Below are positions 37,440 through 40,861 of a DNA stretch of 64,000 nucleotides, piece by piece (positions within the stretch are counted from its first letter, which is position 1; the number at the start of each line of letters is the position of its first letter). The notes under the pieces were generated by a model. The model was not told the DNA's origin. It was given only the letters and a program-made list of their open reading frames with translations, and ran no database searches. A program made the position numbers and the translations under genes. Source of the stretch: Herbiconiux sp. (GTDB lineage Bacteria > Actinomycetota > Actinomycetes > Actinomycetales > Microbacteriaceae); NCBI RefSeq assembly GCF_023264895.1, contig NZ_JAHFUY010000023.1, positions 1 through 64,000 of the forward strand, given 5' to 3'.

Positions 37440-37489
37440 GAGTCGACCCTAGGCGGGCGGTGGCCATTCGGCCGCGGTAAACTCGACGA

Positions 37490-37513
37490 GGCGCGTCGGG
37501 AAGTCTGGTCGAC
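37490..37513 (+). ncRNA. Candidate structured leader RNA motif, copy 1 (nhaA 5' leader)
   Basis: GGCGCGTCGGGAAGTCTGGTCGAC; GTCG/CGAC stem around GGAAGTCTGGT loop; 22/24 identical to copy 2 with a compensatory pair change. Confidence 0.65.
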
Positions 37514-37540
37514 ATCCGTTCTGTCGACCCGAGGAGCTCC

Positions 37541-38893
37541 TTGAACAACTCCACCACGCCCGCCCGCTTCCCGTCCTGGCCCGGCTACCGGGAATCCCGC
37601 CGCATCACGGCGCTCCTCCGCAAGGAGGCCGTGGGCGGCATCCTTCTCGTGGTGGCCGCCGCCATCGCCATCATCTGGGCCAACTCACCTGCGGCTGAAG
37701 CGTACTTCGCGCTCCGCGACTTCCGGATCGGGTACGAGCCGTGGCACCTGAACCTCTCGCTGGGTGCGTGGGCCGCCGATGGCCTGCTCGCCGTGTTCTT
37801 CTTCCTGGTCGGCCTCGAGCTCAAGCGCGAGATCGTGTCAGGGGGCCTCCGCCGATTCCAGACCGCGATCGTGCCCGTCACAGCCGCCTTCGGTGGCGTC
37901 CTGGTGCCCGCGCTGATCTACACGGCCGTCGTGTGGGCCGAACCGAGCCTCCGGCCAGGGTGGGCGATCCCCACCGCCACCGACATCGCGTTCGCGGTGG
38001 CCGTGCTCGCGATCGTCGGCTCCCACCTGCCGAGTCCGCTGCGGATCTTCCTCCTCACCCTCGCCGTCGTCGACGACCTCATCGCGATCCTCATCATCGC
38101 CGTCTTCTACACGTCGGCGATCGAGGTCGTGCCCCTGATCATCTCGGCGGCGATCATCGCGGTGTACGGGTTCATCGCCCAGCGCTACCGGAGCCTGTTC
38201 CACGACAATGCGCTGGCCGCGTGGCTCATCCTGCTGCCGATCGGTTTCGCCGCGTGGGCGTTCCTGCACGCCTCGGGCGTGCACGCCACCATCGCCGGTG
38301 TGGCGCTGGCCTTCACCATCCCCGTGCGGCCACCTCGTCGTCCGACCGGATCCGGCGCAGAGGAGCACGACCTCGCCGAGCAGTTCGAGCACCGGTTCCG
38401 GCCGCTCTCCGCCGGGTTCGCCGTCCCGGTGTTCGCGTTCTTCGCCGCCGGCGTCGCGGTCGGCGGCCTCGAGGGGATCACCCGTGCTCTCACCGATCCC
38501 GTCACCATCGGCATCTTCGTGGGGCTCGTGGTCGGAAAGCCGATCGGCATCGTGGTCTCGGTGCGGCTGCTGACCTGGCTCACGCGGGTGAAGCTCGACC
38601 CCCTGCTGAAGTGGATCGACCTCATCGGCGTGGGCCTGCTCGCCGGAATCGGCTTCACCGTCTCGCTGCTCATCGCCGAGCTCAGCTTCGGCGAGGACAG
38701 TCCGCACGGCGACGACGCCAAGATCGCCATCATGGCGGCCTCGCTCGCCGCGTCGCTGTTCGCCTCCGTCGTCCTGGTGGCCCGCAACCGGCACTACAAG
38801 CGGATCTCGGACGCGGAGGACATCGACGCCGACGGCGACGACGTGCCCGACATCTACCAGACCCCGGCGGACAGACCGCCGAAGAGCTCCTAG
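37541..38893 (+). CDS. nhaA: Na+/H+ antiporter NhaA
   Basis: TTG start; [77 protein letters not shown]. Confidence 0.96.
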
Positions 38894-38905
38894 GGGCCGG
38901 CCGGG

Positions 38906-40303
38906 TCAGCCGATGACGGGCCGCTCGTCGGGGTAGCGGAAGAGCAGGTTGCGGCGACGCACCGCGAGAGCCGAGGCGAGGCCGATGGGGCCGATCCGTC
39001 CCGCGAACATGAGCGCGGTGAGCACGTAGAGCCCCGCGGGATGGAGCTCTTCCGTGAGACCGACGCTGAGGCCGCAGGTGGCGAACGCCGAGATCACCTC
39101 GAACAGGATCCGGTCGAGGGGGGCGTCGCTCACGAGCATGATGAGCCCGGTCGCGACGAGCACGAGGGTGGCGCCGAGGAACGTCACGCTGATGGCGACG
39201 CGGAGCGCGCCCTGCGGGATGGTGCGACCGAAGATCATGACGTTCTTGTCGCCCTTGGCCTCGGCCACGATGGCCAGGAACAGGATCGCGATGGTGGTGA
39301 CCTTGATCCCGCCGGCCGTGGAGGCCGATCCGCCGCCCACGAACATCAGGGCGTCGGTCACGAGCAGGGTCACCGGGCTCGACTCGCCGTAGTCGGTCAG
39401 CGAGAAGCCGCCGGATCGCATCATGGTCGAGGCGAACAGGGCGTGGTAGATCTTCTCGCCGACCGTCATGCCGCCGATCGTGTCCGTGTTCGACCACTCG
39501 AGCACCATCCAGGTCAGAGCACCGAGCACGAGGAAGACGGTGGTGGTGGTGAGGGTGAGCTTGGCGTGCAGCGACCACGTCCTCCAGTGGTGCCGCGACA
39601 TCATGAGCACGAGGAAGACGGGGAAGCCGAGGCTGCCCACGAACACACCGACCATGACCGGGATCGTGATCCAGAGGTCGCCGTCGTAGGCCATGATGCC
39701 GCCCGGGTTCGGCGCGAAGCCGGCGTTGTTGAACGCCGAGACCGCGTAGAAGATGCCGTCCCAGGTGCCCCGGAGGAAGGACCCCTCGACGATGATGAAC
39801 CGGGGGATGAGCACGAGCGCGAGCACGCCCTCGAGGACGAGGGTCGTGAGGATGACGATCCGGAGCAGCGACTGCACCTCGCCGAGCTTGCTCGCGCCGA
39901 TGCCCTGCTGAGCGAAGATGCGCACCTGCACGCCGAAGCTGCGGGTCACCGCCCGCGAGAGCAGGAGGGCGATGGTGATGATCCCGAGGCCGCCGATCTG
40001 GATGCCGAGGAGGATGACCAGCTCGCCGAAGAACGACCAGTGCTCGGCGGTGTCGACCGAGACCAGCCCGGTCACCGTCACGGCGGAGAAGGCCGTGAAC
40101 ATCGCATCGTGCAGCACCGTGGCCCGCCCGTCGGCCGCGGCGATCGGGAGGGTGAGCAGGCCCGTGAACAGCAGGGCCACGAGCAGGAAGATGGCGAGCG
40201 CGAGCAGAGCGGGAGAGATCTTCGCCACACGGCTCGTGGCGATCGCGAGGCGGAACGGATCTCGCGCACGACGCGTGCGGGCCGTGCGCGCGAACGTCAT
40301 CAT
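38906..40303 (-). CDS. TrkH/KtrB-family potassium uptake channel subunit
   Basis: 465 aa; repeated selectivity-filter pattern FSAVTVTGL, NAGFAP, RSGGFS, FATCGLSVGLT. Confidence 0.93.
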   Translation of the reverse strand: MMTFARTARTRRARDPFRLAIATSRVAKISPALLALAIFLLVALLFTGLLTLPIAAADGRATVLHDAMFTAFSAVTVTGLVSVDTAEHWSFFGELVILLGIQIGGLGIITIALLLSRAVTRSFGVQVRIFAQQGIGASKLGEVQSLLRIVILTTLVLEGVLALVLIPRFIIVEGSFLRGTWDGIFYAVSAFNNAGFAPNPGGIMAYDGDLWITIPVMVGVFVGSLGFPVFLVLMMSRHHWRTWSLHAKLTLTTTTVFLVLGALTWMVLEWSNTDTIGGMTVGEKIYHALFASTMMRSGGFSLTDYGESSPVTLLVTDALMFVGGGSASTAGGIKVTTIAILFLAIVAEAKGDKNVMIFGRTIPQGALRVAISVTFLGATLVLVATGLIMLVSDAPLDRILFEVISAFATCGLSVGLTEELHPAGLYVLTALMFAGRIGPIGLASALAVRRRNLLFRYPDERPVIG

Positions 40304-40734
40304 CCCTCCGTGCCGGATCCGGTGCCGCGAAGGCCCGACACCGACCCGCTCGAGTGCGCGAGCTCGATGACGCCCTCGCTCGAGCCGTCGATCGAGGCCT
40401 GCACCTTGCGGGTCAGGCCGTCGAGGTCCGGATCGGGCGGCACGATGATGGCGTCCACCCGAGCCGACTGCGTGCGGCCGCGCCGGGCTCTCCTCCGGCT
40501 TCTGGCCAGCTCGCGCAGCGTGACGTCGGCCATCACATCGCTCGTCCGCGGGTCGGTGGAGCCGTTCAGCGACTCGGGCTCCACCCGCACGAGCAGGGCG
40601 TCGATGTCGGCGACCCGGGGGATGCCCGTGCTCCGGGAGGGATGGACGACGTCGAGGCCTGCCGTGGAGAGCGAGCGGGTGAGGTCGTCGGAAAGCGGAT
40701 CTCCGTAGACCACGGCGAGAAGGGCTGATGTCAT
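40300..40734 (-). CDS. Small conserved-operon protein of unknown function, coupled to TrkH
   Basis: MTSALLAVVYGDPLSDDLTRSLSTAGLDVV...; stop overlaps TrkH ATG; no TrkA-N GxGxxG motif seen. Confidence 0.65.
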   Translation of the reverse strand: MTSALLAVVYGDPLSDDLTRSLSTAGLDVVHPSRSTGIPRVADIDALLVRVEPESLNGSTDPRTSDVMADVTLRELARSRRRARRGRTQSARVDAIIVPPDPDLDGLTRKVQASIDGSSEGVIELAHSSGSVSGLRGTGSGTEG

Positions 40735-40786
40735 GTGCGCGACCGGCTCTCTGCTAGGAGGAAGAGCGGCTCGCTCCGAGCCACCC

Positions 40787-40810
40787 GCCGACCAGACTTC
40801 CCGGCGCGCC
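40787..40810 (-). ncRNA. Candidate structured leader RNA motif, copy 2 (trkH operon 5' leader)
   Basis: Minus strand GGCGCGCCGGGAAGTCTGGTCGGC; CGCCG/CGGCG stem around the same GGAAGTCTGGT loop. Confidence 0.65.
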
Positions 40811-40861
40811 ACCAGCAGACTAGCCGACGTCGTGCGGCCGGTCACTGACATGCTGCAACTG

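Follow-up and report, generated by a model that had tools for sequence, protein, structure and literature searches.

Two short and nearly identical sequences precede cation-transport genes in the stretch of Herbiconiux sp. DNA analysed here (64,000 nucleotides of contig NZ_JAHFUY010000023.1, referred to as the window), which raises the question of what this motif is and at what level it acts. The first copy, GGCGCGTCGGGAAGTCTGGTCGAC, lies at 37490-37513 on the + strand, and the second, GGCGCGCCGGGAAGTCTGGTCGGC, at 40787-40810 on the - strand. They match at 22 of 24 positions and differ only at motif positions 7 and 23, which pair with each other. A scan of the window at up to three mismatches recovered these two copies only, compared to 0.00 expected from 100 dinucleotide shuffles, and the pair is therefore not expected by chance. 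The motif ends 27 nt before the TTG start of nhaA and 52 nt before the ATG of a small ORF that overlaps trkH. Positions, strands, paired differences and both distances agree with the original prediction made from these letters. That prediction was mistaken in calling the two operons unlinked, since they are adjoining and convergent, with nhaA ending at 38893 and trkH at 38906. Coordinates are collected in Table 1.

Table 1. Features of the nhaA and trkH-operon leaders and of the genes behind them (positions in the window)
Feature	Position	Strand	Basis or remark
-10-like box TAAACT, nhaA promoter	37478..37483	+	Sequence; TAnnnT enrichment upstream of the motif
25-nt core motif, nhaA leader	37490..37514	+	P1 GUCG/CGAC around invariant loop GGAAGUCUGGU; covariance model 41.0 bits
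GUCGACC, position-locked second element (motif positions 34-40)	37523..37529	+	Complementary to GGUCGAC (motif 18-24)
Shine-Dalgarno GAGGAG of nhaA	37531..37536	+	Sequence
nhaA, Na+/H+ antiporter, 450 aa, TTG start	37541..38893	+	Pfam NhaA PF06965, 8e-126
-10-like box TAGTCT, trkH-operon promoter	40817..40822	-	Sequence; spacing as in other copies
25-nt core motif, trkH-operon leader	40786..40810	-	P1 GCCG/CGGC, loop identical to nhaA copy; 43.6 bits
Local hairpin GUGGCUC GGAGC GAGCCGC, immediately 3' of the trkH-leader core	40764..40784	-	Predicted
Small ORF, 144 aa, 3' end overlapping trkH start	40303..40734	-	No Pfam or NCBIfam match
trkH, K+ uptake protein, 465 aa	38906..40303	-	Pfam TrkH PF02386, 1.9e-49

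The small ORF belongs to a group of 144-164 aa proteins, matching neither Pfam nor NCBIfam, that head the trkH operon behind the motif; its relative (L016:1563-2054) stands behind the motif in another genome of the same genus. This protein may be an accessory part of the K+ transporter. A local hairpin of the type listed in Table 1 is also predicted in the trkH-type leader of that relative, and is present in many nhaA leaders of the genus.

The motif is widespread in the phylum. An exact 15-mer was found in 13 of 16 genomes of the same genus, mostly before nhaA. The pattern CGGGAAGNCTGGTCG was matched in 91 of 297 genomes sampled phylum-wide, with almost no matches for a reversed control, and a looser pattern, which lets in some chance matches too, was matched in 191 of the 297 genomes examined in the class. 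The covariance-model search of actinobacterial genomes that had been proposed with the original prediction gave matches in 34 of the 120 genomes searched in the phylum, and these 34 include members of several families that lie outside the class. By eye, NhaA is once more the usual downstream gene in copies from other classes. An exact 21-mer occurs at no fewer than, that is at least, 120 loci among GTDB species, and 119 of the 120 loci listed bear actinobacterial titles. The sole other title among the matches listed is a Dehalococcoides mccartyi MAG contig, where the motif also precedes nhaA (L095:1554-1574); this copy is probably due to mis-binning and possibly to transfer. One genome (G139, genus g9; loci L212, L213 and L214) possesses 8-9 copies, some of them only a few hundred bases apart. 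The genes behind these copies encode CPA antiporters, proteins with a STAS domain and a 122-aa product of no known family.

Na+/H+ antiporters and further cation transporters are strongly over-represented among the genes that follow the motif, as had been predicted. NhaA is the first downstream gene in 136 of the 227 copies with a callable ORF, and cation transporters of one kind or another (CPA, Mrp, TrkH, P-ATPase and others) are found behind approximately three quarters of the 227. Pfam was run on 86 of the 91 first genes other than NhaA. Results showed 17 Na_H_Exchanger proteins, 7 Mrp/Proton_antipo_M antiporter subunits, 2 P-type cation ATPases, 2 CitMHS/NhaD-type transporters, one Na/Ca exchanger and one H+-PPase. 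Four trkH operons lie behind the motif, two with TrkH as the first gene and two of the trkH type headed by a small ORF. A further 8 first genes encode CBS-domain proteins, and at the three CBS loci that could be read further the next gene, by eye, encodes a CitMHS/ArsB-like transporter. Another 17 encode ABC ATPases. Some of the CPA proteins look like K+/H+ antiporters, and the ABC ATPases are similar to DrrA; Na+ export should therefore not be assumed at these loci. The remaining first genes are mixed and include STAS, methyltransferase, glycosyltransferase (UGT) and abhydrolase proteins, for which an ion role is not obvious.

Our analysis has also located the motif relative to the promoter. 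Across 216 non-redundant copies, TAnnnT is most frequent between -13 and -8, counted from the first G of the motif, while the upstream sequence is otherwise little conserved, and both window copies conform to this spacing. Judging from established promoter spacing, transcription should start at or just before the motif. A -10 box directly upstream on the sense strand makes the motif the predicted 5' end of the mRNA, which is in keeping with the earlier expectation that it lies inside the transcript. The median distance from the motif to the start codon is about 35 nt, and intrinsic termination is unlikely as a regulatory step because this gap is so short. At some loci (L069, L077, L094, L108, L111, L152 and L159) another type of upstream sequence, TACGGCATCTTTAC, stands before the motif. 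These copies come from Amycolatopsis, Nocardia, Rhodococcus and relatives and precede CBS, CPA and other genes; the TACGGCATCTTTAC type suggests the use of a different sigma factor or an activator.

A fixed site just past the -10 box could also be a DNA operator, with a salt-stress repressor or activator bound to the inverted repeat GCCG-N11-CGGC at +1 to +25; both the location and the imperfect inverted repeat would fit a repressor. The orientation of the copies argues against this, as 134 of the 136 copies near nhaA lie on the same strand as the gene and 2 on the opposite one, and divergent genes each have their own copy, facing opposite ways. The same location would suit a conserved promoter-proximal or translation-enhancing sequence (an initially transcribed region or a 5'-end stabiliser) that responds to no signal, since the motif begins at the transcript start and folds without a clear expression platform. 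We find this last explanation very improbable: the motif is confined to a narrow functional set of genes instead of accompanying strong promoters in general, and the whole Herbiconiux genome holds exactly three copies, the third lying 66 nt before a second nhaA.

Evidence on whether the motif acts as RNA comes from its pattern of change. Positions 1, 2, 4, 9-14 and 16-21 are near-invariant, positions 3, 5, 15 and 25 are variable, and conservation falls to background level past position 25. Stem P1 (positions 6-9 with 21-24) is paired in 98.9% of cells. Three of its four pairs show double changes, namely 6-24 (G-C to U-A), 7-23 (C-G to U-A) and 8-22 (C-G to U-A), most of which came from a scan that left those positions free, with two of the U7-A23 cases coming from a scan that required A23. 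The compensatory changes occur in several genera, U7-A23 in six of them, so that the single compensated pair of the original prediction extends to three pairs. The covariation score of P1 is 0.244, compared to a shuffled mean of 0.090 (none of 500 shuffles reached the observed value) and no more than 0.053 for slid versions of the stem. A subgroup with a U6-A24 stem is lineage-specific (genus g10; L041, L196-L198 and L200-L202) and stands before DrrA-like ABC ATPase genes. Two other pairings were rejected. A conserved stem CCGG/CUGG (positions 7-10 with 16-19) fits every sequence yet shows no double change, and covariation thus favours P1; a closing helix between the 5'-GG and a downstream CC was, by eye, inconsistent with position 3.

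Positions 5 and 25, which flank P1, are informative as well. C.A and U.G are isosteric wobble pairs, and they make up most copies at these positions (137 and 47 of 227, respectively). In the window, the nhaA leader has C.A and the trkH-operon leader C-G. On the NhaA tree, 7.1 independent pairs change together compared to 0.2 that change apart (median p ~0.016), in an analysis whose largest batch of loci was retrieved with C5 fixed. An alternation between C.A and U.G is a signature of RNA that a DNA operator would not yield. Half-site changes in an operator could be symmetric, but the C/A and T/G covariation at 5/25 breaks the palindromy, and the 11-bp centre is invariant yet asymmetric; we therefore regard an operator as improbable. 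Covariation, gene enrichment and promoter position together support the earlier proposal that cation-transport operons share a selected leader RNA acting in cis. We conclude that the element is genuine, ancient within Actinomycetota, RNA-like and linked to cation homeostasis, and we have little doubt that it is a cis-acting RNA.

Downstream of the core, leaders that are long enough often contain a second element, UUCGUCGACCC or a UGCCC variant, at a set distance. The most frequent position is 36 for CGACC and 38-39 for TGCC, which locks the element to roughly +36 to +41. The element stands out strongly in nhaA leaders and more faintly in others; it also occurs in some leaders from distant families. 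Its GACC is complementary to the GGUC formed by the loop and the 3' strand of P1. Helices of at least 7 bp were found in 38 of 213 leaders compared to 9 expected in shuffles, and the partner of G18 is most often position 40. Such a helix cannot coexist with P1, a hint that the RNA is bistable. The second element is missing from most leaders, with a helix partner in approximately a third, and its partner in the loop is invariant, so that covariation cannot probe this helix. In three leaders from other families of the phylum (L248, L247 and L230), the core abuts the Shine-Dalgarno sequence and leaves no room for a second element; regulation there must rely on the core alone.

Nearest-neighbour folding never prefers P1. 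Computed folds favour an alternative helix, and forcing P1 costs a median of 8.9 kcal/mol. P1 is thus too weak alone and must be held by tertiary contacts, by a ligand or by a protein. The nhaA leader of the window is no more stable than shuffled sequences (z = -0.22), and the trkH leader is somewhat more stable (z = -2.19). When P1 was forced in computed folds, exposure of the Shine-Dalgarno sequence was not raised on average. A simple switch that sequesters this site, with P1 as the open state, is therefore not supported.

A stem that is unstable on its own, in a conserved core of 25 nt that is short for an aptamer, is also what a protein-bound leader would present. An actinobacterial RNA-binding protein would read the GGAAGYCUGGU loop on P1 and control translation or decay of a salt-stress regulon. 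The mixed regulon, with STAS, methyltransferase and UGT genes beside the transporters, agrees with this, and a location right at the transcript's 5' end would suit control of decay. We consider a protein-bound leader to be the main alternative to an ion riboswitch, and a rather unlikely one: the motif has no candidate protein linked to it, the locked second element and the C.A/U.G pair suggest structure beyond that of a protein-bound hairpin, and the regulon resembles that of Na+ riboswitches.

Our preferred reading, held with moderate confidence, is that the motif forms the conserved centre of a leader RNA, acting in cis, at or near the transcript start of operons for Na+ extrusion and other cation transport across Actinomycetota, and that this RNA is bistable with an effector-stabilised P1. 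As we infer the mechanism, the P1 hairpin (here positions 5-9 with 21-25) would present the invariant 11-nt loop GGAAGYCUGGU, and its rival would be a helix in which GGUCGGC (18-24) pairs with a downstream partner, namely GUCGACC or GCCGACC in about one leader in three or else some other sequence. Some factor would stabilise P1, which is too weak to form alone. Because of the regulon, the effector would most likely be an alkali cation, Na+ first, or a linked signal such as Li+ or pH. Once bound, it would alter how well the mRNA is translated or how long it lasts, and under salt stress Na+ efflux and K+ uptake would rise as a result. We lean, if only slightly, towards a riboswitch that senses an ion or small molecule, while the assignment to Na+ in particular is tentative. 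The element probably represents a new class of cis-acting leader RNA and a small ion (Na+-type) riboswitch. More specifically, and as a conjecture only, the motif could be a new and unusually small riboswitch class of ~25-42 nt. It would sense Na+ directly, or else protons through an A+.C pair at 5-25 that can be protonated, and would coordinate Na+ efflux with K+ uptake across the phylum.

To our knowledge, few Na+-sensing regulators have been described in any organism. The authors of work on the Na+-I riboswitch expected many more of them to exist (PMC9337991). If our reading is true, a phylum-wide RNA before nhaA, CPA, Mrp and trkH genes would explain the control of sodium and alkali stress in a major soil phylum, in genera such as Streptomyces, Arthrobacter, Nocardia, Micromonospora and their relatives. 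Genetic tools would also gain a very compact element that responds to ions. Since it corresponds to no catalogued RNA family, the short and nearly invariant element is probably a switch that has yet to be described and that assists these bacteria in responding to sodium or salt.

With the aim of placing the motif among known RNAs, all Rfam families were searched with cmscan in the window and selected loci. The motif had no match at the gathering cut-off or to E = 10, and the supposition that it belonged to no known class has held. A search of the open literature by the letters of the motif and for actinobacterial Na+/nhaA leader RNAs likewise found no description of it. The ydaO (c-di-AMP) riboswitch, a large multi-helix RNA, controls K+ transport and osmotic-stress genes. 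It has a link to K+ transport in common with the motif described here, which in contrast showed no match to the ydaO model in the window or selected loci.

The Li+-I and Li+-II riboswitches are most often found directly upstream of nhaA and of other cation transporters, and the main text of the paper that describes them does not mention actinobacteria (PMC9646797). The gene context is alike, but neither Rfam model matches our motif. Li+-I (nhaA-I, RF03057) gave no score over the gathering cut-off in the window, the selected loci or 59 Actinomycetes genomes, where three matches below the cut-off were spurious, in or at unrelated coding regions; Li+-II (nhaA-II, RF03038) had no match above the gathering cut-off in the all-family scans of the window and selected loci. 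Na+-I (the DUF1646 motif) and Na+-II (nhaA-I variants) sense Na+ in the leaders of genes for Na+ extrusion and allied functions; only 308 DUF1646 representatives are reported, and actinobacteria are absent from the main text (PMC9337991). Our motif likewise stands in the leaders of such genes. In contrast, it is a 25-nt single-hairpin core found almost only in Actinomycetota and without an Rfam match, the Na+-I model included in scans to E = 10.

The dauA motif is a three-stem junction that includes the Shine-Dalgarno sequence and was reported in 2024 from a 50-genome search, with 57 Streptomyces sequences before STAS genes (PMC11109978). A few copies of our motif also precede STAS genes, and those loci (L213, L214 and L125) gave no Rfam match. 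The core described here is one short hairpin, mostly before nhaA; it is set apart from dauA by description, and overlap at STAS loci is possible. Like riboswitches in general, the motif is a conserved, structured 5' UTR RNA before a functionally coherent set of genes, with covariation in its stem. By the tests that were run it is outside the Na+ and Li+ families, yet it would act in the manner of the leader of a Na+/Li+ riboswitch system.
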